This document shows positions 43,775 through 64,000 of a DNA stretch of 64,000 nucleotides, piece after piece. Source of the stretch: Polychytrium aggregatum (taxonomy: Eukaryota > Chytridiomycota > Chytridiomycetes > Polychytriales); assembly GCF_025602895.1 (NCBI RefSeq), contig NW_026516205.1:1054001-1118000 (forward strand), written 5' to 3'. The notes beneath the pieces were generated by a model. That model had not been told where the DNA came from, ran no database searches, and worked only from the letters and a program-made list of their open reading frames with translations. A program made the translations under genes and the position numbers. Every line of letters starts with the position of its first letter. Position 1 is the stretch's first letter.

Positions 43775-45617
43775 CTAGAACTGACTAACCAATGCCAGCA
43801 CAGCTCTGTCGGCGTCGATATCGTCGTCCGCCACAGGCCCCACCTGCACAGCCTCGTGGTGCGAGACCATTCGCAGCCGCTCCATTTGCTTGACGACTTC
43901 GGCACGCCGCCAGGTCGCCGTCATGAAGCTGGCGTAGCTCCACGACAGATGACGGGCGCCGCGCATTGCGCCGTGGTGGCGGTCAATCTGCTCAGACATG
44001 GATCCGTCTGTTGGGGTGTGAAAGCGAACCCGGCGCAGGAAGGCATCGCCGGCGGCGCTGAGGTTGCCGACTATAGACGTGAACAGCTCGGGATACTGCC
44101 GGTGTCTGAGCAGGCCTCCGGAGGCGACCGGGAACGACCCCGACGGCATGCCGAGGATCTCTTCAAGCACAGGGATCAGCGGCTCGGTGACCTTGATGTG
44201 CGATTTGCTGGCCCACTTGGCGGAGCAGTAGTACAGCAGCTCGGCGTAGCCGCAGGTGCCGAGGACCCACGGATTGCCGCCCGTCATGCTGTCGCCGTCA
44301 TAGACGTCTTCGATGTACCGACCGATGGCGGGGCCCATGAGTCCGCCGGTGAGATCGCGGCGGACAGCGTTGATGGGGTAAAGCCGCTGCATGGCATGCA
44401 TCATCTCCAGAGCCGTGATCAGCACTTCGCCGCTGCAGGGATACATGTACTCGTCGCCCTCGATCTGGCCCTGGATCGATGCAAGGATAACGGCGAGATC
44501 CAATCCAGCCTTGCCCTTATTGTCGCCGCGCCAGTCGAGAGTCTCGATAAGTTGCTGGCGGAAGGGACTCCAGTGCTCGCGCAGACTGACTTCGACGCTG
44601 CGGGCATGGTGATAGTACCACTTGGCAGCCCCCTCGTCGTTCATCAGGCGGGCAAATCGCCAGCCATACTCAAGCGCCGCTCGTTGGACGGCCTTGGTGT
44701 GGAAGTGGTGCCCATCGACCTCTTCCCAGAGCTCGAAGCCGTGATGGGGCCAGGACTGCGCGACATACTCCAGGTCCCGCTTGAGCGGGCTCGAAGAAGG
44801 GTAGTTGCTGTCGTAAATGAACTCTCGGATCTTGTCGGGTGAATGGTCCTTGTCGAGATAGGCGACGGCGAAGCGGATGAAGACGAGAGCACGAAGGGCT
44901 GGACCGTCGTTCTGCGGACGGCCCCAGTCACCGGCAAAGGGTCGCCCGTCCTGCGAATCCGGAGGAAGGCAACGCCGATCGAGGCCCAAGCAGGGATCAG
45001 GATCGGTGGGCGAGCAACCAGCAACCAGCAACCAGCAACCAGCAACCAGCAACCAGCAACCAGCAACCAGCAACCAGCAACCAGCAGCAGATCGCCACCA
45101 ATGGCATCCAGGGCCTTTCCCCGCATTGCTCTCGCTGCCAACCACAGGACCCATGAAGGGAGGACAAGGCAGTCGGACTTACCACATGAAACTTGGGCTC
45201 GCCGAGGCCGCCGCTTCGGTTGGGCACTTCCTGCAGTCGCTTGGAAAAATGCACAAAGCTCCAAATCAGCGACTCGTAGCGGGCCTCTTCCGGCGACCCG
45301 GGTTTCGCTTGGCGATAGAGGCTCACGACGACGTCCATGACCAGGGCCGAGTCCCGGATCCAGGTGTAGAAGTAGTCGGGGTGCGATCGCGACGGCGAAG
45401 CAATGACGGAGCCATTGTTGAAGATGTTTTGCAGTAGACGGTCGTGGGATATGTTGTATTGCTGCTTGATCCATGGGGCCAGCGTTGCGTCGAGCTCAGG
45501 ACCAGGGATCGGGAAGAGACTGGCGAGGGCCGGGCCGACAAGGCCAACCAGGAGCAGAAGCAGCCAGCGCAGGGCGATCGGGCGGGTGAGGCGGATCGGC
45601 ATGCGAGTCGGCATCAC
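43775..45617 (-). CDS. Secreted GH15 glucoamylase
   Basis: Glucan 1,4-alpha-glucosidase that releases glucose from starch or glycogen ends outside the cell. Two exons (45183-45617 and 43775-44950) give 536 residues. A hydrophobic leader (RWLLLLLVGLVGPALA) is the signal peptide. The GH15 hallmarks are DYFYTWIRDSALV, EPKFHV joined across the intron to DGRPFAGDWGRPQNDG, and FELWEEVDGHHFHT, which contains the expected catalytic glutamate region. GGNPWVLGTCGYAELLYY and a C-terminal LSWSYASFMTATWRR follow. There is no starch-binding domain. The single intron (44951-45182) contains a 7-base tandem repeat. A TATA-like GATAAAAGC lies about 100 bases upstream. Confidence 0.95.
45007..45084. repeat. CAGCAAC 7-base tandem repeat in glucoamylase intron
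   Basis: About eleven copies of CAGCAAC on the plus strand (GTTGCTG in gene sense), filling the middle of the only intron of the glucoamylase gene. A related CAGCAAG repeat occurs at about 61477-61503. Confidence 0.9.
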
Positions 45618-51300: not shown

Positions 51301-52818
51301 GACCGGTGCCACTGGCTTCCTCGGTGCCTTCCTGGTCTTTGAGCTGGCACACAAGTTCCCTCGGGCCAAGATCTACTGCCTCGTGCGGGCTCCGACCGAG
51401 CAGGTGGCTGTCGAGCGCATCATCAGCACGGCTCAGAAGTTGGTCCTCGATCCGAGCCAGAGAGCCTTCCTTGACCACAGCCTCAAGTCTCGACTCGTTG
51501 GACTGTGCGGCAACCTGTCGCAGGACAAGTGGGGACTCTCGGACGAGCGATGGAAGGAGATCAGCGAGGAGACCGACACGATTGTCCACAACGGCGCCGA
51601 GGTCCACTGGCTGTTTGACTATGACAGACTCAGGGGACCCAATGTCCTCAGTACGGCGACGGCCCTGAGACTGGCCACAACCCACCACCTGAAGCCGCTG
51701 CACTACATCTCGACCATCGGTACGATCCCGATGGCCAAGAAGGCAGACAAGCCGCTCGAGGAGACGATCTACTCGGCCTGGAACATCTCTGGCGGGTATT
51801 CGCAGACCAAGTGGGTCTCTGAGCAGCTGGTCAACAAGGCACGATCGAGGGGAGTACCTGCGACGATCATTCGTCCAGCCGTCATTGCCGGCGACAGCCA
51901 GTACGGAGGTGAGTCGAATGTGATGTGGTGTGGTGTGGTGTGGTGTGGTGTGGTGTGGTGTGGTGTGGTGTGGTGTGGTGTGGTGTGGTGTGGTGTGGTG
52001 TGGTGTGGTGTGGTGTGGTGTGGTGTGGTGTGGTGTGGTGTGGTGTGGTGTGGTGTGGTGTAGATGTCTCAATCGCCACATGGATTGACCATGAATCGAT
52101 GGTCTCGATTGCCGAGTGCCACTCACCCACCAATTGACACCAACTGACACCTTCACACCCTCCATTGCTCCAGTGTCCAACTCTGATGACTACATCTGGC
52201 GATATGTCAAGGGATGCATCCAACTTGGTGTTGCTCCCTCGCACGCCACTCTTGTCACGATGACCATGGATCCCGTCGACCATGTTGCCAAGGTGGTTGC
52301 CGAGATTGCCGGCTCGGAGGAGTCCCTGTCCAAGTTTGTGTTCCACATCAGCGACTCGGAGCACAGGTGAGGAATGTGTGGTGTGATATGGTGTGATATG
52401 TTGTGGTGTGGATGGTGGATCCTGACTCTGATTACTCACTCACTCACTCACTCACTCACTCACTCGCCACAGTGTCCTCACTGAGACCCGGCTGTTTGAG
52501 ATTGTCAGGAACCATGGCTGGCCGATCCTGTTCGAGACCCGCGAGCAGTTCAAAGAGGCATTCCACTCCCACCCCGCCGTCGAGAGCAACGCCCTGTTCC
52601 CGCTCATGCACATCATGATGGACATGTCCTTCAAGATCGACAACGCCAACACCCGCTCGATCTACCCGACTCCCTGTCCCTCGCTGGAGGAGGTTGTCGA
52701 GAAGTGTCTCAACTATCTGCACCACGTTCGCTTCTTGGGCGATCCCCTGGACCCGTCTTCGTCCTTCAAGATCAAGTATCCCGAGACCAGCGCGGCCACC
52801 CGCACCGGCCGCAGCTGA
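48360..52818 (+). CDS. Adenylation-thiolation-reductase (A-T-R) NRPS-like enzyme
   Basis: Carboxylic-acid-reducing enzyme with three parts: an adenylation domain that activates an acid with ATP, a phosphopantetheine carrier, and an NADPH reductase that releases an aldehyde. Exon 1 (48360-48736) starts MLRAFSCCFGG. Adenylation motifs are TFQCTSGTTG joined to VPKS, the YGSSE motif, and TVIGRFDQKIKVNGVYVDL. The carrier site is GGVGFDSLSVGRL with the modified serine. The reductase has GIVLTGATGFLGAFLV for nucleotide binding and SGGYSQTKWVSE as the YxxxK catalytic pair. There is no condensation domain. The layout resembles Lys2 aminoadipate reductase and fungal aryl or fatty acid reductases, but substrate is unknown. 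Introns at 51907-52173 and 52369-52472 carry microsatellites. Confidence 0.88.
51924..52061 (+). repeat. (TGTGG)n pentanucleotide microsatellite
   Basis: About 27 almost perfect TGTGG units, starting a few bases after the GTGAGT donor of an intron in the reductase part of the A-T-R gene. The array is nearly uninterrupted. Confidence 0.95.
52437..52464 (+). repeat. (ACTC)n microsatellite next to a 3' splice site
   Basis: Seven ACTC units ending about 10 bases before the acceptor (GCCACAG, 52472) of the last A-T-R intron. Same sense-strand unit and position as the array in the BTB gene. Confidence 0.9.
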
Positions 52819-53080: not shown

Positions 53081-56000
53081 CTAAACAGCCATCGCTTCGA
53101 TTTTTTGAATGTTTTTGAGCACTCTTACAACCGCCGGATGATCGTCTCGACCGTACACTTTCATGTAGATAGTGAATGCTTCATTATAGTGTTTCAAAGC
53201 GTCGGCCTTTTGTCCCTTCGCCTTCATCACGAGCCCAATATTATTGATAGCTCCGGCCACGTCTGGATGCTCGCTAGTGCCATAGAGTTTGATATAGATC
53301 TCGAGTGCATTTTGGAAATGTTGGAGAGCTTCGTCATTGTGTTTCTGCTGGGCAGTTATTGCTCCCATGTCGTTGAAGGCGGAAGCAACTTCTATATGCT
53401 CGCGTGTGCCGAATACGCTGAGGCGAATATCTAGCATCTCTTTGGCAAGCTGGAGAGCGTCATCAAGACGGCCTTGGAATCTTGCTATCGAACTGATGTG
53501 CTCGAGTGTTTGGGCGATATCGGGGTGCTCACGAGTACCCAAAATCTTGAATTGGATAGAGAGGGCCTCTTGATACATTTCAAGTGCTTGATCATAATGT
53601 CTCTGATCCTTTGCAATCAGCCCAATGTTATTAATGGTCCCTACAATATCAATATGATCACGAGTTCCATAAACTTGTGTCATGATATCGATAGATTCCT
53701 GGAAGTAGACCAGTGCTTCATCCAGGCGTCCTTGGTCATATTCAAGCAGGCCCAAATCGTTGAGAACTGCGGCGATTTCCGGATGCTGGCGCATTCCATA
53801 GACTTTGACCATGATTTCAAGTGCCTCTTGATAGTAATTATGGGCATCGCCCAATTGTCCTCGAGCGCTCGCCAGCAGACCCAAGCTTCGAAGGACTCCT
53901 GCTATCAAAAAATGATCCCGGGAATGGTAGGCTTTGGTGTAGATGGCGAGAGATTCCTCATAGTGCTTGAGGGCGGTGTCGAAGTGACTGAGTTCATATT
54001 CCAGACTTCCGATTGCGCTCAAAGTTGAGGCAACAGCTGGATGATCACGGGTAGCAAAAGTCTTGACCATTATCTGGAGGGCTTCGTGATGCAGCTCGAG
54101 AGCATCGCTCAAGCGCCCTTGATCGCTTGCCAAATGGCCAATATTATTGAGGATTTGAGCAACATCGGGATGCTCGCGAGTACCGAAGAGTTTGACGCTG
54201 ATATCGAGGGAGTCTTCATAGTATTTGAGGGCGGCGTCGAAGTGTCCAAGTTCCCGTTTCACACCCCCAATACTCGTCAGAACGGCGGCAACGTCGGGAT
54301 GCTCTCGAGTACCAAAAGCCTTGACCATTATCTGGAGGGCTTCGTGATACAGCTCGAGAGCATCGCTCAAGCGCCCTTGATGGCAGGCGAGCATTCCCAG
54401 GTTGGTGATGGTTTGAGCAGCCTCTGGAATTTCGCGCTTTCCAAACACCTTGACCAAGACCTGCAGTGACTCTTCATAATATTGAAGAGCCTCTTCCACA
54501 TTTCCTAGATCGCCTTCCACCGCCCCGATGTTGTTCAAGGTCGCGGAGATATCGGGATGCTCTCGAGAACCGTAAACCTTGATCATTGTTTGGAGGGCTT
54601 CACGATGCAGCTCGAGGGCATCCTCCAAGTGACCTTGCTGGCTCTTGAGCATCCCGACGCTGTTGATGGTTCTAGCGATGTCGATATGCTCACGGGTTCC
54701 ACGGAGCTTGATAGTGGCGTCAAGATCTTCGAAGAGATACTTTGAGGCAGTAGTCAGGTCGGCCTGTTGTAGCGCGACATTCCCCAAACCATTGAGGATG
54801 GGAATAACGTTCTCGTGGGCTCGAGATCCGTAGAAATTGACAGTCTTATCCAGAGCTTGATTGAATTTTTCCATAGCTTTTTTGAGCAGCGGTCGATGTT
54901 GAGCGAGCCTTGCAGCCTGAAACTCGACTCGACCATGCAGTTGCTTGGTGTAAACCTCTGGCACTGTATATTCGGCGTATTGATCGAGATGCTCCGCAAA
55001 TGATTGTGCCTTGATATCCATCGACTCGGCTAACTCGAGCAACACTTCACCAGTTGCATCTTCTATTCCTTCGGCATCCAGTTCATTGTGTGCCTGGACA
55101 TACTCTCGAGCCACTTGCTGGGTGAGCGAGTGGGTCGAGTACTGTCCCTCGGCTCCACTTCGGAGGAGACCACTCTGGACCATCATCTTGATCAGATCGG
55201 TCACTGTGGACAGGAAACTGATCAATTCCATGCATCCATGCACTGGCACCATTGATTGCACTTCGATTCAATCCCGACTCACCTTCGGTCTTGAGCTCCA
55301 TCTTCTGTGCAATCGCCTTGATCAACTCGAACTGGATGTTGGTCGGCGCCACCAGACTGAGGGCACCGAACAGCCTGGCTGCCTCGATGCCCTCATCCCC
55401 TCGCCTCATCAGCGAGTCCAGCGACAGATCCACAATCACCTTGAGCGACGACCGCGTGTCGTCATCGCCATCCTGCAGCTCCAATGCTCCTGCAAACGTG
55501 GCCTCGAGCACCAACAGGGGAGTGTCGTAGTTCTCGGCAAACGTCATGAACGTCTGGATGACGAGTGGATATCCACTGATCCTGGCCACGATGCTGTCGA
55601 GGGATTTCCTGGCCTCGTCCGACACAAGTCGCTGGACAATCATTGGCGACGACGACATGATATAGTCGAGTGTAGTTTTGTCGTCCCAGTTGCCGAGACG
55701 GAGCAGATCGTGCTGGAAGCTCGGTGCCTTGGTCTCGAGAGCACTGACGAATGCACCAGGAGGCAGCGAGGCCAGCCGGGTCGTCATCACCACATCGCCG
55801 CCGAACCCGACCGACTTGGAGTGCTCAAACACAGAGTCGACCACGTTGATGTCATCGACATTGTCGAGCACCAGGAGATAGCCGTGAGTGTTGGCGAGGA
55901 ACCTCGAGGCATGTTCCTTGATCACATCGGGCTTGATACCAGGGAACATGTCGATGAGTCCATCGAGGGCAGTCGACTCAGTCGAGCAGTTGATCCAGAA

Positions 56001-56855
56001 GACCTGGCGGTACTGTGGCTTGATGCCGATGGTCTCGGCCTTGATGGCGAGGAGGTCTTCCTTGTTGCTCGCATTCATAATGCCCATCATGAAGAACAGG
56101 ATCTGGACAGCCAGGACGGACTTACCCATGCCACCCATGCCAGAGATGACGGCACGGCCAGTCAGGGTGAGCTGCTTGAGCAGGGTGTCGAGGTGGGCGG
56201 GGTCGAATCGGAACTTGGAATCGCAAAAGTATTTGCGATGGATGGCCGTAATGAGATCCATGTTGGGTGGGATGGGATGGACGAGGTTGAGGAGGCGGTA
56301 GACTCGCTTGTGCATCTGGTCGGGACGGAAGCCAAAGGACTGGATCTGGTTCACTCTGCCGAGGATCTGCTTGAGGGGGGCAAAGGCAGGGTCGTCGGGG
56401 AGGGACACCATGTACGGTAGGAAGGGAGTGAAGTCATCGACACCATCCTTGGTCTCCTTGGTGGCGATTCCGAGGGGAAGGACAGGCAGGGAGCGTTTGG
56501 CATCCTTGAGATCGAGGGCGGTCTTGATTTCAAGGACTACATTGTCCTCTTGGCCATTCTTGGTCTTGTCCTTCATCATGTCCATCGAGGCCTTGCTGAG
56601 GAGCAGGAAGACGGCTTTGCTGGTGGGGAGGGCACTGATAGAACTGGCTGGAGGGTCGCTGGGATTGTTGAGGCAGTCGACATCGTGGAAGACGGAGAGG
56701 GGTTTGCCATATCGACGGAGGGCGACCGAGGTGAGCACCTCCTTCAGAGCCTGGACAGTGGCAGCATCAGTCTGGGCTTGGTATGAGAGGAACAGGTCGT
56801 GGTCGGTGCCGTGGGCAGGGCAGGAATAGAGCTGGTTGCTGGTGGCGGTCAGCAT
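53081..56855 (-). CDS. TIR-NB-ARC-TPR (NLR-like) receptor
   Basis: Signal-transducing STAND ATPase with NLR architecture; fungal relatives act in allorecognition or innate-type defence, but its role here is inferred. Two exons (55283-56855 and 53081-55203) join in phase to 1,231 residues. Residues 15 to about 145 form a TIR-like domain (DHDLFLSYQAQTD, SVFHDVDCL, SKAVFLLLSKAS). The nucleotide-binding module has a P-loop GMGGMGKS at 239-246, kinase-2 YLLVLDNVDD at 326-335, and VVMTTR at about 355. From about 600 on there are some 14 tetratricopeptide repeats of 42 residues, with the recurring GTREHPDVA signature of kinesin-light-chain-type TPRs. A LINE sits 81 bases upstream of the start codon. 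Confidence 0.88.
53150..54900 (-). repeat. 126-base coding tandem repeat (TPR array)
   Basis: The TPR part of the NLR-like gene is a periodic array with a 126-base unit, best seen as repeated GACCATTATCTGGAGG and TCGGGATGCTC words on the plus strand. Some units are close to identical, suggesting recent duplication or conversion. Confidence 0.75.
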
Positions 56856-56926
56856 GGCTGGACGGGGTTGGAGGATGAGAGGCAGAAACCAAGGCAGCCA
56901 AGGGATGGTCTGTTGAGAGAAGAACA

Positions 56927-56936
56927 GGGCTTGGCG
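56927..56936. repeat. 5' target-site duplication of the LINE
   Basis: GGGCTTGGCG (an A just before it is also shared), matched exactly at 59229-59238. Confidence 0.75.
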
Positions 56937-59228
56937 ACGTCGAGCCCCCTACACCGAGCCAAGAGCGTAGACGACTCCCCCCAGCTACGAGCTCCCCATA
57001 ATCAGCCCACGGGCAATCAAGGAGGCGATCATTACAACACCACGAAGGAAGGCCCCAGGGTCGGACAGGATCAAGATCGAACTGCTCCAGCCCAACGCAT
57101 ATAGAGTCTCGATATGGCTCTACTTCCTCATGGGAGCAGCCATCAAGGCGTCCGTGGTCCCAACTGAGTGGAGTACAGTGCTGATCCATCCCGTCTACAA
57201 GAACAAGGGATCGCCCCTCGACCCCGCAATGTACAGGCCGATTGGACTGACCCAGGTCTGCCGAAAGGTTGTCGAGCGAGCACTGCTGCCGTTGCTCAAC
57301 CGAAAGCTCGGACTGATGGACATTGCCCAAGGTGGATTCCGGGCCGAGCGAGGCACCCTCGACCAGATCTTTGGCCTGGACACGCTCATCAAGGACCGCC
57401 AGCTGGCGGGCGAGGAGTACTCCCTGGTGTTCCTCGACATCAAGGCGGCCTACGACACTGTCTGGAGGGAGAAGCTCTGGGACAAGATTGAAGAGCGCAC
57501 CCCATGTACGATCACCCTCAGGCTCTTGAAGGCCATGTTCGACGATGTGAAGATTCAAGTCGTTAGCAAGAGCCGTCGGTCCAATCCGGTCTGGCTGCAG
57601 AAGGGACTGATCCAAGGATCGGTGCTGAGCCCGCTGATGTTCAGCGTGTTCATCGACGACCTCCCTGGGAAACTCCGGGCAGACGATGGAACGACCCTAA
57701 CCACCACCCGAGGACGAGCCGTCCAGGTCAACTCACTGTGGTTTGCCGACGATGGGGTGCTCATCTGCCGCCCCAACCAGACCCAGCGCCTCCTCGACAT
57801 CTGCGAGGCCCACAGCATCGAGAATCGATACCAGTTCTCGCCCCCGAAGTGCGAGGTGATGTTCACCGAACAGCACCCAGAGAAGGATGCCAAGGTGCAC
57901 CTATACGGCAAGGAGCTGCCAGTCGCCAAGGAGTTCCGGTATCTCGGAGCCATCGTCGACATCAACGGCTTCAGGATGGACCGCCAGATCCAGAACCTCA
58001 CCCACAAGGCTAGAGGTGCCGCCGACAAGCTGGTGAAGCACGGAATGAGTCTGGGCCGATACTCGGCCAAGACGGTGACGAGGGTGTTCAAGACCTTCGT
58101 TCGGCCCATGCTCGAGTATGGACTGACCCTCGAAGTGCTCACGAAGCAGCAAGCCGTGACACTCAGACGAGCACAGATGCACTGTCTGACCCGACTCTTC
58201 AGAGTGGTGCGGAACACGTCCTACGGAGCGATGCACCTCGGATGCGGACTCATCACCCTGCCCAACCGCCTCAAGCAGCTGGCCCTCCAGAACCGAGCCG
58301 TCTGGGAAGACCGTCTGGACCACAACGACAAGATGGTCTCGATGGTGTTGAGATATTCCCGCATCCAGCCCAGCCTGATGGATGCATCCCTCGGCTCCCA
58401 GTTCTACCTCGACGAGTACTGGCGGCAGCTGATCGTGCTGAAAGAGCAGTGCCAGCCGGACTACCCGATGAAGGAGCTGTTCAGGAATGGCTACTACCAG
58501 CTCCCAGGGCCACCAGTCAAGCTGCAGATTCACATCGAGGACGCGCAAGGCTTCGACAGGTCAAAGGAACTGACCTCGGCCCGCACCGTGACGACGACCA
58601 TGTCGGGACTGTGGGCCGAGCGAGGGCCCAAGAGAGATCGATACTATCACAACATGATGGTAAGATGGACCCTGGGTGCCTTCCCCGGACACCCGTATGG
58701 CCACTATCGGCTGTGTGTCTCCTGCACGAAGAGCCGAGGAGAGTTCGTCGCGATGTGCCAGACCCACACCCAGAGCTGCGTCGGAAGAGGCGGCTCGTGG
58801 CAACGGATAGCGGACGAGTTCAAGCTGCGGCACCCCGAGTGGCAAGAAAGCGGCCACGAAAAGGTCGGTCCGATCGATAAGCTCCTGAACCTGACGAACG
58901 TAGTGGGTTGCTACGAGCTGGATGGCATGAGAAGGTTCAACTGGCAAGACCCGGATGTACACCTCCTGTGGCGAACACTCCGAAGGGTGTTCAAGACGCT
59001 GATCATCGCCAAGGCGGGGTGGAAACCCCCCAGGCGATAGGCGGCATGGTCGAAGCAGAGCGAGAGATGAGGGCATATAGCTTTCATCGAACGCAAACTG
59101 CCCATTAGGCCTATGAGTATTCCATCCCTTGTTATTTTTCTCCTTCTTTTTCTTTTTCTTTCCCCCAAGTACTGCTAGGGCCGACCAGGCCTTGATAGCT
59201 TTAAAGTGAAATATATATATATATAAAA
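56937..59228 (+). mobile_element. 5'-truncated non-LTR retrotransposon (LINE)
   Basis: About 2.3 kb inserted between the NLR-like and Sel1 genes. It holds one reverse-transcriptase frame, a 3' UTR and an AT-repeat/A-rich tail, and is bounded by a 10-11 base direct duplication. The endonuclease part and first ORF are missing, as is typical of incomplete reverse transcription. Confidence 0.85.
57130..59040 (+). CDS. LINE reverse transcriptase (N-terminally truncated)
   Basis: Reverse transcriptase of a non-LTR retrotransposon. The frame is open from about 56970, before the first ATG at 57130, and includes RKAPGSDRIKIELLQ, so the ATG is probably not the ancestral start. Palm motifs are YRPIGLTQVCRKVVE, FLDIKAAYDTVW (first catalytic Asp), KGLIQGSVLSPLMFSVFIDD, and LWFADDGVLICRP with the paired aspartates. 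The thumb region follows, and a Cys/His cluster lies near the C-terminus (CVSCTKSRGEF, CQTHTQSC). No stop or frameshift interrupts the 636 codons, which implies a recent insertion. No apurinic or restriction-type endonuclease domain is present. Confidence 0.9.
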   Translation: MGAAIKASVVPTEWSTVLIHPVYKNKGSPLDPAMYRPIGLTQVCRKVVERALLPLLNRKLGLMDIAQGGFRAERGTLDQIFGLDTLIKDRQLAGEEYSLVFLDIKAAYDTVWREKLWDKIEERTPCTITLRLLKAMFDDVKIQVVSKSRRSNPVWLQKGLIQGSVLSPLMFSVFIDDLPGKLRADDGTTLTTTRGRAVQVNSLWFADDGVLICRPNQTQRLLDICEAHSIENRYQFSPPKCEVMFTEQHPEKDAKVHLYGKELPVAKEFRYLGAIVDINGFRMDRQIQNLTHKARGAADKLVKHGMSLGRYSAKTVTRVFKTFVRPMLEYGLTLEVLTKQQAVTLRRAQMHCLTRLFRVVRNTSYGAMHLGCGLITLPNRLKQLALQNRAVWEDRLDHNDKMVSMVLRYSRIQPSLMDASLGSQFYLDEYWRQLIVLKEQCQPDYPMKELFRNGYYQLPGPPVKLQIHIEDAQGFDRSKELTSARTVTTTMSGLWAERGPKRDRYYHNMMVRWTLGAFPGHPYGHYRLCVSCTKSRGEFVAMCQTHTQSCVGRGGSWQRIADEFKLRHPEWQESGHEKVGPIDKLLNLTNVVGCYELDGMRRFNWQDPDVHLLWRTLRRVFKTLIIAKAGWKPPRR

Positions 59229-59238
59229 GGGCTTGGCG
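59229..59238. repeat. 3' target-site duplication of the LINE
   Basis: GGGCTTGGCG directly after the AT-repeat and four A residues that end the element; identical to 56927-56936. Confidence 0.75.
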
Positions 59239-59532
59239 CCAAGGACCAGGCACGACTGGGCTGGCAACTGGCACCACGGGACTTTTGGGTTGGTAATCAA
59301 AATCCACTCAGCTGCAGGGTTCCCTGGAAATCAAGTTGATCAGACCGGGCCAGCACCGCAACTGTGGGGTTGGAATCGATTCCCAGACCACGGTTCACCC
59401 ATCGAATAGTCCCTCCGTCTTGATCCGCCTCGCTTTGCTTTGCCCATCTCGCATCTCTTTCCCCCATCCAACCATCTTTCAAGATCTGCTGAAACGCTTC
59501 GCCTCCATCCACAGTCGCAGTCTCGCATCGCC
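59239..59532. promoter_or_regulatory. Remnant of a formerly shared divergent promoter
   Basis: 294 bases between the LINE and the Sel1 start codon. Removing the LINE and one duplication copy joins this to the 81 bases before the NLR-like start, giving a divergent promoter of about 375 bases. Confidence 0.5.
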
Positions 59533-61062
59533 ATGAATGCCAGCGTCGCTTCCTCCTGCACTCGACCGATGACTCGCCTGGCCGTCGACGACCACAGCCC
59601 GGACATCTTTGCCATCGTTTGCTTCAACGAGCGCTTCCAGCTCGCACTTGACCATGTCGCCATCAAGACCCTGCTCCAAGTGTGCAGGCGGGCACGGCCT
59701 CTCCTGAGCTCCAAGCTGCCTCGCTTCCACCGCTGGTGCCAGAATGCAGAACTACGTCATCCAGACGGACAGATGCGGATCGGCCTCACACCCAGCGACC
59801 GCATTGCACTCGCCCTGCACTGCAATGTGCCACCCACAGCCGACCGATCCTGGCTCGTTGCTCAGGCGGACCAAGGGTGCCCCGCTGCCTCGTTCTTCCT
59901 GGCCCGGATCATCCAAGTCCATCTCGACGGACAGCAGTCCGTAAGCCGGGCAGCGCGGCGGTCTCAGTCTCAACAAATCTTCCGCCACCTGGAGAATGCA
60001 GCCCACACAAATCATCCGATGGCTCAGTTCCACCTGGCCGAGTGTCATCGCAATGGCATTGGAGTCGACCAGGACCACACCAAGGCTGCCGAACTGTATC
60101 GCTGCCTTGCGGATCGTGGACTCGCACAGGCCCAAGTTGCTCTCGGCCGATGCTATGAGACCGGCGAAGGAGTCGAACAGGACTACGACACCGCCATCGA
60201 GTGGTACTCCAAGGCTGAAGATCAAGGCAGCGAAGACGGCCGACTCCACATCGAGTTCCTTCATGGGTGGTTCTCGTTCACTGGCCACGGTGTCGAGCAG
60301 AGCGATGTCGATGCCCTCAATCACTGGCAGGAGGTCAGCACCAAGTCGACGGACCCGGTCATCAAACCGATTGCCACCCACATGGTTGGGTGGATGCACT
60401 ACCTCGGCCGGGGCACACAACAAAACCAACAGAAGGGCATCAAGATCATTCGCGAGAACGAGTCGAGAGACTTCCGTCTCGGGGAGGACGAGAGCTTAGC
60501 ATCATGGCTAGCCTTTGTGTCCTCCCTGTCACCAGCCGCCTGCAAGCTGTTTCAGCTGTGCAATCTGGGATCAAATCGAGACTGGCTCTACAAGCACCTC
60601 AAGGCTGTGTGTCTGGTCCAAGGGTTCGGTGCTGCGAGAGACCATGAAGCGGCAGCGAGCATCTTTGAGCAGCTCGCCAATGACGGCCACAGCGACAGCC
60701 AGCTCTGGATTGGCGAGTGCTATCGATGCGGCTGGGGGAGGCCAAAAAATTACTCAAGGGCATTCGAGTGGTTCCGCAAATCCGCCGATCAAGGCAATTC
60801 GTACGGGGAGTGGATGGTCGGCATGTGCTACTACTGGGGATACGGCGTCGACAAGGACCACTCCAAGGAAATCGAGTGGTATCGCAAATCGGCCGAGCAG
60901 GGCAATCGATACGGCCAACACTATATCGGCGACTTCTACGAACGCGCTGATGGTTTCCTCAAGGATTCTGAAGCTATGTTTTGGTACCATAAGGCCGCGG
61001 ACCAAGGATTCAGATACGCCATCGACAGTCTTATGAGGCTCGACAGTGGCCCTGACCCATGA
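59533..61062 (+). CDS. Sel1-repeat (SLR) protein
   Basis: Intronless 509-residue protein made mostly of Sel1-like repeats, helical pairs that scaffold signalling complexes. Residues 1 to about 130 are a non-repeat N-terminal part (HVAIKTLLQVCRRARPLL). Repeats then run to the C-terminus with the usual pattern, for example AQVALGRCYETGEGVEQDYD, WYSKAEDQG, WMVGMCYYWGYGVDKD and WYHKAADQGF. A central block (ATHMVGWMHYLGRGT, then DWLYKHLKAVCLVQGFG) is shared with the kinase gene downstream. The start was chosen at the ATG in 59533-59535 (context cgccATGAAT), after a TC-rich leader. No catalytic residues are seen. Confidence 0.9.
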   Translation: MNASVASSCTRPMTRLAVDDHSPDIFAIVCFNERFQLALDHVAIKTLLQVCRRARPLLSSKLPRFHRWCQNAELRHPDGQMRIGLTPSDRIALALHCNVPPTADRSWLVAQADQGCPAASFFLARIIQVHLDGQQSVSRAARRSQSQQIFRHLENAAHTNHPMAQFHLAECHRNGIGVDQDHTKAAELYRCLADRGLAQAQVALGRCYETGEGVEQDYDTAIEWYSKAEDQGSEDGRLHIEFLHGWFSFTGHGVEQSDVDALNHWQEVSTKSTDPVIKPIATHMVGWMHYLGRGTQQNQQKGIKIIRENESRDFRLGEDESLASWLAFVSSLSPAACKLFQLCNLGSNRDWLYKHLKAVCLVQGFGAARDHEAAASIFEQLANDGHSDSQLWIGECYRCGWGRPKNYSRAFEWFRKSADQGNSYGEWMVGMCYYWGYGVDKDHSKEIEWYRKSAEQGNRYGQHYIGDFYERADGFLKDSEAMFWYHKAADQGFRYAIDSLMRLDSGPDP

Positions 61063-61681
61063 GCTACCCCAAGCGCTTTGCCGGCTCCTCTCCCCAAGAT
61101 CATCGCTGCATCACCGAAGAAACGAGCAAGCACCATAATTGTGAGGGACTGACCCACATGTGAACATGACGCGAGAGACTACTCACGTCATTCCTGCAAC
61201 TTGTCCACCATCGCGCCATCAATCACATCACTTCCCACGCCTCGACACACTTCTCGACCCGAGTCCACCCCCGTCCCGTCTCGGACTCGAAATATAAAGA
61301 ACCCTCGCCTAGAGCTCCGGGACGGGGAGGGGACTCGATCGGGGGGATCTTGAACTTCGACCCACGCCCTTTGAACGCTGAATAAATTTATCTTCAACCT
61401 CCTCTTTTCCTGGCCCTCCCATCATGGATCCTGACAATAATTCAACACGGAACATGGGGCGAGCCCAAGTCCCTCAGCAAGCAGCAAGCAGCAAGCAGCA
61501 GGCGATACCACCAACCGAGCACAGATGCACTGCTTGACGTCGCTGTTCCTGGGTCAACCGAAACACACAATGGGCAGCCACAAGTGTCGATCAGCGATTG
61601 ATCGGCCACATCAACGATACCATCGTCTGTTTCGATATGCACAATGGTTTTATTCTTGCGCAGCATATACATATTCAGAAA
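61063..61681. other. Convergent intergenic region with promoter-like sequence
   Basis: Between the Sel1 and kinase stop codons. Although convergent, it holds a TATA-like TATAAAG (61293-61299), a TC-rich stretch and an ATG, described in the next entry, plus a CAGCAAG repeat. Confidence 0.4.
61424..61537 (+). CDS. Possible small ORF or remnant gene start
   Basis: A 37-codon frame (MDPDNNSTRN, then Gln/Ala/Ser-rich sequence encoded by the CAGCAAG repeat), 125 bases after a TATA-like element and preceded by a C/T-rich leader like those of neighbouring genes. It may be the surviving 5' end of a deleted gene copy, or chance. No homology recognised. Confidence 0.15.
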   Translation: MDPDNNSTRNMGRAQVPQQAASSKQQAIPPTEHRCTA

Positions 61682-63613
61682 TCAACGCATGAACTGAAGG
61701 TACAATCCAATCATGCTGATCATCGTAGCCATGGCGCTGACAGCGCCGCTGACACCCAGATTGGCCGACCGCATATACCACAGGGAGGCAGTGGGCATGC
61801 TTCGAGCAACTCCGAGACCGTAATAATAGCAGTCTCCCAGGGCCCGCATTGCATAGGGGTTCTCCTGGTTGACGGATTTGTTGTACCAAGACAAGGCCTT
61901 GAATCTGGCTCGGGATGTTCCCAGGCAATACGAGTAGCAATGCCCCAGCCAGTACTGGCTGTCGCTATGTCCCTGTTTGGCCAGCTCCTTGAAGATTGTG
62001 AAGGCCTGCGTCTTGTCCTGCAGGGTGCCGAATCCGTTGACATAGCACACCGCCATCAGATGCTTGCAGAGCCAGTCGTATTCGGAGAGTGTGTGGCACA
62101 GCTCGAAGAACTTTTTGGCTGCAGTCGCTCTGGATGAACTCAAGGTGAAGCCGCTGAGGCACGCCTCTTCGCCAAGGCCAAAGTGAGAGGCCGAGCCTTC
62201 TTTGATCATTTTGATTCCGGTTATTGTGTCTTTTCCAGTGCCGCGGCCCAGGTAGTAGAGCCAGCCGAGCATGTGTGAGGCCATTGGCTCGAGAGCCGGA
62301 TCGCCAGATTCTTTGTGGACCTTGGTCCAATGGGTAAAGGATTTGGAAAAGTCTTGCTGGACACCACAGCCAGTCATGTACATCCATCCAAGATAGAAGT
62401 GGGCCTCGAGATTGCCCTCATCCGCCATGCGAGAGAAGATCTGCACAGCTGTTGTGTTGTCGGGCTGGCTGGGCTGGCTGTGGGTGATGTACTTGGCAAC
62501 AAACTTGGCCAATCCTTGCGGCATTTCCAGCGGCTTGATCGAGCTTTCGGCAACATCGAGGGCAGCATCCGGGTCTCCGCTCTGGAAGCGCAGGGCCAGA
62601 GAGGGCGGAATATTGCAATTTTCAGGAAGTTCCATAGACGCCAAATCGGAAGTCTTGGGAGAGCCAGAGGCGGTACTGGCACCGGAGCAGCTGGAGCTGT
62701 CCGATACCACTTCGGAGCTGTCCGATACCACTTCGGAGCTGGATGGCTCAGGAGTCGGGCGGATGTAGTCCTTGTAGCGATCGAGGCTCTCGACAATGCT
62801 GGGGAACTCGGGGCGGTCGTTGGGATCTTGCTTCCAACAATCGCTGACGAGCTGCCAGACGTCGTCGGGGATGCCTTCGAAACGGCTGGGCCGACCACCC
62901 TCGAGAACATAGTTGCAAACGGTGTAGCCACCCATGGATTGTGAGCTGAGTACCCAGGGGGTCGCGGCGTTGTTGAGGACAGTGAGGATGGTGATGGCAA
63001 AGGCAAAGACATCCGAGCGCTTCGTGGTCTGCGCTTCGTGGTTGGAGCCCAGCAGCTCGGGGGCCATGAAGCCTGGAGTGCCGCAAACGGACACTCCCTG
63101 CTGGTTGTTGGTCTGGGCCGAGTCGGTCCAAATGTGGGACAAGCCGAAATCCGAGATGACGGCTGAAAACGATGCATCCAACAGAACGTTCATTGGCTTC
63201 AGGTCGCCGTGAACGACGTTGTTGCTGTGGAGATACGCCATGCCCAAAGCCACTTGGCGAAGGAGGCAAAGCTTCTCCTCGAGGGGACGAATGTTTGCTG
63301 GATCTCTGACATAATCGTGGAGGGTGCCGTTGGGCATGAATGGTGAGACTATGCAGTGCTTGGAGTTGTTGTCGCAGGCGCCGAAGAGCGGAAGAACGTG
63401 TCGGTGGTTCAGTCTGCGCCAGATGGCGATTTCTTTCCGAAATTCGACCAGCTCTGCATCGGAGTGGCCGCGAAAGGGCTGCTTTACAGCGACCACGGCG
63501 TCATTGTACGAGGCCTTGAATACTTCGCCCCAGCCGCCGTGGGCAATGGGAGCAAGAGTCCAGTTGGTGATGCTTTCAGCGGCGATGTTTCGAGATGAAG
63601 TTTCGGTCGACAT
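61682..63613 (-). CDS. Protein kinase with C-terminal Sel1 repeats
   Basis: Intronless 643-residue protein. An active-looking kinase domain of tyrosine-kinase-like (TKL) type spans about 18-280: glycine loop AHGGWGEVF, Lys44 in VAVKQ, catalytic loop VVHGDLKPMNVLL (HGD in place of HRD), SDFGLS, and CGTPGFMAPELL. A Ser/Asp linker with a 7-residue duplication (SSEVVSD) follows, then Sel1-like repeats from about 390 to 620 (HFYLGWMYMTGCGVQQD, YWLGHCYSYCLG), ending in a hydrophobic stretch that could be a membrane anchor. The start is the ATG at 63613 (context atcaccATGTCG); an upstream in-frame ATG at 63688 gives an unlikely hydrophobic leader. The Sel1 block is paralogous to that of the neighbouring gene. 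Confidence 0.9.
   Translation of the reverse strand: MSTETSSRNIAAESITNWTLAPIAHGGWGEVFKASYNDAVVAVKQPFRGHSDAELVEFRKEIAIWRRLNHRHVLPLFGACDNNSKHCIVSPFMPNGTLHDYVRDPANIRPLEEKLCLLRQVALGMAYLHSNNVVHGDLKPMNVLLDASFSAVISDFGLSHIWTDSAQTNNQQGVSVCGTPGFMAPELLGSNHEAQTTKRSDVFAFAITILTVLNNAATPWVLSSQSMGGYTVCNYVLEGGRPSRFEGIPDDVWQLVSDCWKQDPNDRPEFPSIVESLDRYKDYIRPTPEPSSSEVVSDSSEVVSDSSSCSGASTASGSPKTSDLASMELPENCNIPPSLALRFQSGDPDAALDVAESSIKPLEMPQGLAKFVAKYITHSQPSQPDNTTAVQIFSRMADEGNLEAHFYLGWMYMTGCGVQQDFSKSFTHWTKVHKESGDPALEPMASHMLGWLYYLGRGTGKDTITGIKMIKEGSASHFGLGEEACLSGFTLSSSRATAAKKFFELCHTLSEYDWLCKHLMAVCYVNGFGTLQDKTQAFTIFKELAKQGHSDSQYWLGHCYSYCLGTSRARFKALSWYNKSVNQENPYAMRALGDCYYYGLGVARSMPTASLWYMRSANLGVSGAVSAMATMISMIGLYLQFMR
62697..62740 (-). 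repeat. 21-base coding duplication in the kinase linker
   Basis: Two exact copies of a 21-base unit coding SSEVVSD between the kinase and Sel1 parts. Confidence 0.9.
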
Positions 63614-64000
63614 GGTGATGCAGATGACGGCAAGGGCAGAGGGAGGGGCAGAAGGGGGCAGAAGGAGGGGACAGCTGTGACGAAGCAAAGTGCGTTCGGA
63701 AAGCGGGTTCTCGAGTAGGGTGCGCAGAGGACGGTGGTTGTGGAAAGCAAACGGCGACCACCATGTCGACGGGGTTCATATACTACGTGATCGGGCACGG
63801 GTATCTTGGGAATGGTGGCGGTGGCAAGCCAACGCAGCGGCCAGGGGTCGAGTGGCGATGTGGGTGGAGGGTATCACCTCGCTGCGCGGAGGTATCACGT
63901 TGCTGCGCGGAGGGTATCACTTCGGAGTGCCAATAGAGTTCCATCTCGACCTCCCCAGTTCGCACAGTCGGTCCAGAAAGAAACGGGACAGTCACTCTCT
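63614..64000. promoter_or_regulatory. Promoter region of the kinase-Sel1 gene
   Basis: Upstream of the minus-strand kinase gene, running to the window edge. It contains a 21-base direct repeat annotated separately. No other gene is recognised. Confidence 0.4.
63870..63924. repeat. 21-base direct repeat in the kinase promoter
   Basis: Two and a half copies of GGTATCACCTCGCTGCGCGGA, about 260 bases upstream of the kinase start codon. Spacing of two helical turns would suit a repeated protein-binding site. Confidence 0.7.

Follow-up and report, generated by a model that had tools for sequence, protein, structure and literature searches.

A dispersed chytrid NLR family with a near-uniform signalling exon and copy-specific TPR arrays, seen at a locus shared with Sel1 and kinase-Sel1 genes

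The window analysed here, a stretch of 64,000 nucleotides from Polychytrium aggregatum, holds three genes in a row that had been read as an NLR-like receptor, a Sel1-repeat gene and a kinase fused to Sel1 repeats. These identities are borne out, since all three genes are open and their products give the domain matches listed in Table 1. The receptor gene is intact, running from an ATG at 56855 to a stop at 53081 with a single GT-AG intron.

Table 1. Features of the locus, in window coordinates
Feature	Position	Strand	Details
TIR-NB-ARC-TPR receptor gene	53081..56855	-	Two exons, 1231 aa; open frames, NB-ARC and TPR_10 matches
Receptor exon 1	55283..56855	-	TIR (aa ~1-165) and NB-ARC, Walker A GMGGMGKS; probably a homogenised cassette; ~90% identity at many dispersed loci
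Receptor intron	55204..55282	-	79 nt; donor GTGAGT, acceptor CACAG; frame preserved across splice
Transition zone	54914..55033	-	Receptor exon 2 codons ~57-96; paralog similarity drops away here
TPR array	53144..54820	-	Thirteen 43-aa units, exact 43-aa period; diverged among paralogs
Left target-site duplication AGGGCTTGGCG	56926..56936		71 bp upstream of receptor ATG
5'-truncated LINE (RVT_1)	56937..59227	+	RVT_1 96 bits; starts 82 bp upstream of receptor ATG
Right target-site duplication AGGGCTTGGCG	59228..59238		Perfect 11-bp match to left copy
Duplicated segment, part inside window	59499..64000		Whole segment 4,814 bp; 100% identical inverted copy at C223:1147819-1152632
Sel1-repeat gene	59533..61062	+	509 aa; Sel1 165 bits
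Block in Sel1 protein common to kinase-Sel1 protein	60175..60903	+	Sel1 protein aa 215-457
Kinase-Sel1 gene	61682..63613	-	643 aa; kinase and Sel1 74 bits
Block in kinase-Sel1 protein common to Sel1 protein	61754..62467	-	Kinase-Sel1 protein aa 383-620
Protein kinase domain	62783..63550	-	PK_Tyr_Ser-Thr 173 bits

The NB-ARC domain of the receptor scores 28.1 bits against a Pfam cut-off of 23.5, and 11 stretches match TPR_10, establishing the C-terminal superstructure repeats. Pfam finds no TIR family in the window protein at E 10, and we accept the N-terminal TIR because of matches elsewhere in the family: a paralog (L070) that is 42% identical to the window receptor over this region matches TIR_2 at 35.8 bits (cut-off 28), and the family profile matches the TIR chains of SARM1 (E 0.0037) and also matches Roq1 (E 0.05). 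Among seven family members scanned for TIR_2, one scores above the cut-off, five fall under it and the window protein gives no match. The Walker A motif GMGGMGKS is present in all 14 near paralogs compared (window copy counted), as is the glutamate of an LEI motif that aligns with HKEI of SARM1, the SARM1 residue being one that we take to be catalytic. In a wider alignment of ten receptors, the P-loop GK is absent from one (L071) and the SARM1-aligned glutamate from two (L069 and L074). Judged by its domain content (NB-ARC, TIR and repeats), the window receptor is a canonical intracellular NLR, or STAND receptor. In such a protein the concave face of the TPR array would be where ligand binds, NB-ARC would serve as the switch, and the TIR, with its SARM1-aligned glutamate, may consume NAD+ and so lead to a death or defence response.

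Read by eye, the kinase-Sel1 translation retains VAVK with the catalytic lysine, HGDLKPMN (HxD), DFG and APE, and these motifs, together with the PK_Tyr_Ser-Thr match, mark the product as a TKL-like, candidate active kinase. The paralogous block predicted in the Sel1 and kinase-Sel1 proteins is real, at 42% identity over 243 aa (E 5e-62). An F-box was considered at the N-terminus of the Sel1 protein, but the resemblance was by eye only and none was found in any of the five N-termini scanned. Both genes lie in a duplicated segment whose identity starts 34 bp before the Sel1 start codon and stops at the window equivalent of 64312; its inverted copy, and with it a second Sel1-kinase pair, lies about 30 kb from the pair in the window. 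No gene from our receptor list falls within 26 kb of that second pair on its Sel1 side.

The LINE insertion between the receptor and the Sel1 gene also holds up, given its reverse transcriptase match and the perfect 11-bp target-site duplications at both ends, and copies of the element elsewhere in the genome are 95-99% identical. Once it is subtracted, only 376 bp separate the receptor and Sel1 start codons, so the divergent arrangement is real. The original prediction that the two were divergent neighbours before the LINE arrived therefore stands as regards the arrangement, but either the LINE or the Sel1 block may have come first. An allele with an empty site was not seen among the matches listed (39 of 857 candidates scored).

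The same prediction went further, and took the three genes as a candidate defence or non-self recognition module in which the Sel1 protein could recruit or compete with the kinase through the common block; in a true module of this kind the receptor would signal via the kinase. Of the circumstances named in advance as speaking against the prediction, one half, that the families be dispersed in large numbers, is what we observe. The receptor family occupies 73 dispersed places (81 matched rows minus 8 fragment rows removed by hand), and the Sel1-block motif matches 291 times in the genome compared with 0 for a reversed control. First-look candidates in the Sel1 and kinase searches numbered 865 and 1278. 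For co-location we used 100 listed places of the 291 for the Sel1 block and 69 kinase places (from 113 matched rows), with 62 mitochondrial-carrier genes, hand-merged from those listed among 155 matches, and the best 65 of 579 LINE candidates as controls. Within 10 kb of a listed Sel1 or kinase gene lie 21/73 receptors, 18/65 LINE copies and 2/62 mitochondrial carriers; receptors thus differ from carriers (P 5e-5) but not from LINE copies (P 1.0). The Sel1 and kinase lists are partial, and allele pairs raise every one of these counts; collapsing allele-like and block copies by eye leaves about 46 distinct receptor loci, of which 15 are within 10 kb. The LINE control is itself uneven, with 12/24 close copies and 6/41 distant copies within this distance.

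There are points in favour of a module. When receptors are placed at random in the same contigs, 3.6 of 52 would be expected near a Sel1 or kinase gene whereas 17 are found, an excess of about five-fold (P 0.0005, the test minimum), and all three families also come together within ~11 kb on C1 (receptor, Sel1, kinase) and on C358 (kinase, receptor, Sel1-type match). The common block shared by the Sel1 and kinase-Sel1 proteins is genuine as well. Against this, LINE copies are similarly near these genes, and order and orientation vary from place to place. The duplicate Sel1-kinase pair also has no receptor alongside. In 32 receptor upstream flanks of 1.5-2.5 kb (20 plus a further 12 of ~1.5 kb each) a kinase gene occurs in five and a Sel1 gene in one, and ten frames scanned from flanks with neither match include two WD40 proteins and one LRR protein. 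Inside this one genome, no receptor-Sel1-kinase order or adjacency beyond background was found. The LINE control, the variable order and the duplicated pair lead us to reject a fixed three-gene module, and we regard a true defence module of the kind described above as very improbable; any link of the receptor to the Sel1 or kinase proteins is one that we could only infer.

A looser form of association might still be envisaged, in which head-to-head pairs of a receptor with a kinase-Sel1 or Sel1 gene are selectively kept for a promoter in common, with the partner swapped over time. Divergent pairs ~0.3-0.55 kb apart do occur with a kinase (the C312-type block and C68:231), with a Sel1 gene (C364/C385 and C101) and, leaving out the LINE, in the window. 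However, the excess over LINE copies at 1 kb is not significant, with 8/73 receptors compared with 3/65 LINEs (P 0.22), or nine receptors (P 0.14) if a 5' fragment on C101 is included, whose omission from the 73 places leaves the count one divergent pair short. Few of the eight are independent, since five are kinase-headed with one spacing (the three compared being near-identical) and two are allele-like. Four kinase-headed blocks (L049, L053, L057 and L058) are 97.1-99.5% identical, and the recurring head-to-head receptor-kinase pairs are mainly copies of one block. Independent cases of divergent pairs number five or six among the ~46 loci collapsed by eye, and positions 59239-59498 give only one match, of 13 bp and at chance level, to the other receptor and Sel1 flanks compared. 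A weak specific receptor-Sel1/kinase association may be present at 1 kb, but we think it quite unlikely that selection has kept such pairs. The simplest reading of the co-location is a repeat-rich compartment common to all the families. The three genes would then be independent members of three expanded families which, with the LINE, occupy one duplicating, repeat-rich part of the genome and so end up together.

The receptor is what distinguishes the locus: over many copies its signalling half is near-uniform, and its sensing half is copy-specific. Against the window copy, exon 1 has a dS of 0.13-0.18 in 12/13 paralogs (0.34 in the other, L007), whereas exon 2, where the TPR half is usually saturated, reaches a pS of 0.64-0.85 at codons 60-135 in all 13 and of 0.64-0.79 at codons 135-400 in the 12 that were measurable. 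Along exon 2, mean pS in eight paralogs rises from 0.26 (codons 17-56) to 0.66 (codons 57-96) and 0.75 (codons 77-116). Synonymous constraint is rejected as the cause of this uniformity, given that nine out of nine diverged paralogs reach an exon 1 pS of 0.37-0.74.

A trio of recent duplicates, at C358:278064, C358:352749 and C361:263612, was compared in the same way. Their exon 1 sequences differ pairwise at 71, 53 and 85 of 1572 nt (3-5%), yet exon 2 differs at only 3, 10 and 13 of 1449, the intron at 0 of 82, and none of the three pairs shows a difference in the 150 bp upstream of the ATG. Most of the variable sites in exon 1 (53/71, 35/53 and 66/85) have both states among 11 other paralogs, and the nearest paralog switches along the exon, which is thus a mosaic. 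Since exon 1 differs between near-identical sides and its variants are mostly common to other paralogs, ectopic gene conversion of the signalling cassette is the interpretation we draw. RIP-like mutation does not explain the differences, as exon 1 has a TpA/ApT of 0.23-0.29 and exon 2 one of 0.48-0.61 (four genes) and the variants are shared with paralogs. It could be argued that the TIR-NB exon was instead copied onto many older TPR genes in one recent burst of exon shuffling, with no conversion continuing, and the similar exon 1 dS of 12/13 paralogs to the window copy would fit this. The mosaic exon between near-identical sides in the trio speaks against it, and we consider such a burst unlikely. 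Divergence in exon 1 and in the TPR half is still correlated (rho 0.36 over the 52 pairs outside the trio, P 0.009; L002, L003 and L007, three loci with partial exon 1, are omitted from the pairs). TPR divergence is unsaturated in 2/9 pairs among other paralogs (dS 0.78). Ectopic conversion would then keep the TIR-NB exon near-uniform while each locus retains its own TPR array. On balance we favour a large NLR repertoire with a common TIR-NB cassette, interchangeable among dispersed loci through ongoing conversion whose limits lie near the start codon on one side and near the beginning of the TPR arm on the other, beside long-diverged ligand-binding TPR arrays that stay separate.

Within the 43-aa TPR unit, entropy peaks at positions 14, 7, 36, 17, 18 and 10, and these six most variable positions of the 43 include all five equivalents of positions 2, 5, 9, 12 and 13. 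In the parts considered here, Dyrka et al. 2014 (PMC4986451) describe fungal NLRs with, as in the window receptor, NB-ARC followed by TPR_10-type repeats, and locate the variable sites on the concave side of the TPR array; the most variable positions in our alignment include those reported as lining the ligand face. Repeats within a gene are highly conserved in that account (85% or more) and vary in number. The window family is different, with TIR as effector and a mean within-gene unit identity of 0.39 for the window array and of 0.40-0.75 for the ten other loci (L024, L025 and L027 being omitted from the unit analysis). Positive selection was not detected in the TPR half, where dN/dS is below 1 wherever measurable.

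TIR has been described in NLRs of Chytridiomycota (PMC9815663), in line with the window receptor, although the portion of that paper considered here contains no description of the cassette homogenisation seen in this family. The survey in PMC12258605, as far as consulted, lists some chytrid species with as few as one NLR and one ascomycete with 315. Exchange among loci also shapes the NWD/HNWD genes of Podospora (Paoletti et al. 2007, PMC1805685), but there, in the part of the account used, homogenisation affects the WD repeats, and the NACHT domains have diverged more; the window family shows the opposite, a uniform nucleotide-binding half with diverged repeats, and is not of the NWD type. 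The zebrafish NLR-B30.2 genes (PMC4852459, in part) resemble the window family, since there too the nucleotide-binding half stays uniform inside each group owing to gene conversion, but domains and host differ and conversion there also affects the recognition domain, B30.2. As for the neighbouring genes, Rhizophagus irregularis (PMC8647823) likewise has expanded kinase and Sel1-like families and high-copy genes near transposable elements, but those elements are Mutator-like, and "NLR" occurs 0 times in the text as consulted.

Taken as a whole, our explanation is that three independent families share one repeat-rich region of the genome, and that one of them is a canonical NLR whose exon 1 is homogenised by conversion, to which we would give a probability of roughly 0.7. 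The locus carries a caution: where members of expanded families lie side by side within a repeat-rich compartment, their adjacency gives little ground for proposing a functional cluster. If the conversion reading is correct, this is a germline design of many sensors with a common output, opposite to what Podospora shows. A flagellated fungus would then carry dozens of related NLR loci with a homogenised signalling half and a sensing half free to diverge, and would offer a direct view of how a genome gains sensors without breaking their common output.

The locus was followed through a search of the 64.7-Mb, 418-contig genome, in which the window lies at C223:1054001-1118000 (C-numbers denote contigs). 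From left to right it carries the receptor, a LINE fragment, the Sel1 gene and the kinase-Sel1 gene. The divergent arrangement originally proposed for the receptor and Sel1 genes is borne out, with the two on opposite strands and their start codons 376 bp apart if the LINE is removed, as is the paralogous block proposed for the Sel1 and kinase-Sel1 proteins, which share 243 aa at 42% identity; their paralogy is therefore old. The LINE starts 82 bp 5' of the receptor ATG and may affect receptor expression. A flagellated fungus would be in keeping with a radial-spoke family match above cut-off in the genome combined with a reductase gene elsewhere in the window (PP-binding, 21.6 bits; NAD_binding_4, 180 bits). 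A near-perfect TGTGG array of ~29 units (51919-52061) lies at the end of the reductase open frame, both strands being open, and a perfect 7-bp repeat, AGCAACC, runs for 10.6 copies (45013-45086) through several overlapping open frames.

Features of the receptor-Sel1-kinase locus (window coordinates)
Feature	Position	Strand	Details
Receptor gene	56855-53081	-	one 79-nt intron, 1231 aa
LINE fragment	56937-59227	+	perfect 11-bp target-site duplication
Sel1 gene	59533-61062	+	
Kinase-Sel1 gene	63613-61682	-	

The further proposal that the three genes form a receptor-scaffold-kinase module fared less well. The 4,814-bp segment that begins 34 bp before the Sel1 ATG (window part, 59499-64000) recurs 29.5 kb further along in inverted orientation, at 100% identity (C223:1147819-1152632). 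Past the second copy's Sel1 start, 1.5 kb of different sequence contains no receptor, and the nearest one among the receptor matches listed is 26.7 kb off; the Sel1-kinase pair thus exists without an adjoining receptor, which argues against a fixed three-gene unit. No match was found in the other receptor or Sel1 flanks compared for the 260 bp separating the LINE from this duplicated segment. By eye, the right flanks just past the duplicate are still alike. The identity may therefore reflect an assembly effect, or a conversion tract in an inverted duplication that is itself older.

Dispersal of all three families in large numbers had been named in advance as part of what would count against the module, and this part is what was found. 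Receptor TIR-NB exons gave 81 rows at 73 places, about 46 distinct loci when judged by eye; for the Sel1 family 84 of 865 candidates were scored, and 113 listed rows from 1278 kinase-Sel1 candidates fall at 69 places. The Sel1-block motif (up to two mismatches) occurs 291 times genome-wide, against 0 for the reversed pattern. From these counts and the motif control, all three families are therefore large and dispersed.

Nor does adjacency within the genome clearly exceed the background of a repeat-rich compartment. Measured against a partial list of 205 Sel1/kinase places, with allele pairs inflating every count, 21/73 receptors have such a place within 10 kb, and random placement on the same contigs of the 52 receptors with known contig extents gave 3.6 expected versus 17 observed (P 0.0005). 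Receptors clearly differ from mitochondrial-carrier genes (2/62; P 5e-5) but not from LINE copies (18/65; P 1.0), although this second control is uneven (close copies 12/24, distant copies 6/41). Across C1-C157 alone, the part of the genome covered by the listed Sel1-block motif matches, the figures are 12/29 for receptors, 10/28 for LINEs and 1/33 for carriers. Within 1 kb, 8/73 receptors compare with 3/65 LINEs (P 0.22), or 9/73 if a C101 fragment is counted (P 0.14). The proximity excess is about that of a resident of a repeat-rich compartment.

The arrangements themselves vary. Among 32 receptor upstream flanks (12 of 1.5 kb, 20 of up to 2.5 kb; E 1e-6), a kinase was present in five, a Sel1 gene in one, a LINE piece in eight and none of these in 18. 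Four of the kinase flanks (receptor loci L049, L053, L057 and L058) are mutual copies at 97.1-99.5%; the fifth, L060, is separate. A Sel1 gene divergent to the receptor is present at C364/C385 and at C101, and receptors at C1, C9, C13, C40 and others are followed 3' by Sel1-block genes. Ten frames from flanks lacking a Sel1, kinase or LINE match included two with WD40 and one with LRR; the WD40-repeat frames (L062, 2-2386, minus; L067, 907-2499, minus) possibly represent another receptor-like class. Closely related receptor blocks were seen on C312, C70, C222, C339, C225 and C28, and in five of them (C339 excepted) the receptor and a kinase-Sel1 gene stand head to head; several lie within ~10-30 kb of a contig end, which suggests subtelomeric spread. 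LINE remnants at L022, L024 and L029, ~215-265 bp 5' of the receptor start, all end at element residue 436, hinting at one ancestral insertion in common.

Turning to the receptor itself, Pfam recognises NB-ARC (28.1 bits) and a TPR array in the window protein and no TIR at E 10; the TIR_2 cut-off is passed by one diverged paralog (L070), the other five of the six scanned scoring below it. Searched against PDB sequences, a ten-member family profile recovered SARM1 TIR chains (E 0.0037) and Roq1 (E 0.05), with the LEI glutamate of the family aligned to the SARM1 HKEI. This glutamate and the P-loop are kept in 14/14 near paralogs, window copy counted; in the wider ten-member alignment the glutamate is absent in 2/10 and the P-loop GK in 1/10.

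The two halves of the receptor have diverged very differently. Exon 1, the TIR-NB cassette, shows dS to the window copy of 0.13-0.18 in 12/13 paralogs (0.34 in L007), whereas pS in exon 2, the TPR half, is 0.64-0.85 over codons 60-135 (13/13) and 0.64-0.79 over codons 135-400 (12 measurable paralogs). Sliding windows across eight paralogs place mean pS at or below 0.26 throughout exon 1 and at 0.66-0.80 across exon 2 codons 57-156, and all 22 exon-1 matches scored stop in the stretch from 53 bp 5' of the ATG to 9 bp inside the reading frame. Of nine pairs of other paralogs, TPR dS was milder (0.78) in two and almost nil in two pairs from a recently duplicated trio (L023, L024, L025). Diverged paralogs have exon 1 pS of 0.37-0.74 (9/9), and exon 1 is therefore not synonymously frozen.

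The trio is informative here. Its pairs differ at 3, 10 and 13 of 1449 nt in exon 2, at 0/82 in the intron and at 0/150 immediately before the ATG, beyond which the flanks become unrelated. Between these near-identical sides, the exon 1 copies show 71, 53 and 85 differences over 1572 nt (P 3e-17, 1e-7 and 3e-13 against exon 2). At 53/71, 35/53 and 66/85 of the variant sites the two alternative bases are each found among a further 11 paralogs, and the nearest paralog shifts along the exon. Mutation alone accounts poorly for these differences, which are best explained by ectopic conversion of the cassette. Exon 1 and TPR divergence are still correlated (rho 0.36, 52 pairs, trio left out; P 0.009), which counts against the conversion being complete.

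For the TPR half, 110 units of 43 aa from 11 loci were aligned, and we take G13 and A25 of the unit to be consensus TPR positions 8 and 20. The equivalents of positions 2, 5, 9, 12 and 13 are then all within the six most variable of 43. According to one study, TPR positions 2, 5, 9, 12, 13, 33 and 34 are the most variable and lie on the concave ligand face (PMC1261162). Such a pattern, general to TPRs with diverse ligands, is consistent with diverse recognition; dN/dS in the TPR half stays below 1 wherever measurable, giving no sign of positive selection.

TIR NLRs have already been reported from Chytridiomycota (PMC9815663), and in Rhizophagus kinase and Sel1-like genes are expanded near transposable elements (PMC8647823). 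Homogenisation affects the NACHT within groups of zebrafish NLRs (PMC4852459), whereas in Podospora NWD genes it is the repeats, not the NACHT half (PMC1805685). No description of the TIR-NB cassette pattern in a zoosporic fungus was found among titles and abstract openings of the openly accessible literature. None of our results connects the receptor with either the Sel1 or the kinase protein. From what is known of these families, ligand would be bound at the TPR face, as in a standard NLR, with NB-ARC as the switch and TIR NADase activity as the output. Conversion would ensure that the half responsible for oligomerisation and signalling stays compatible among all members of the repertoire as their sensors diverge.
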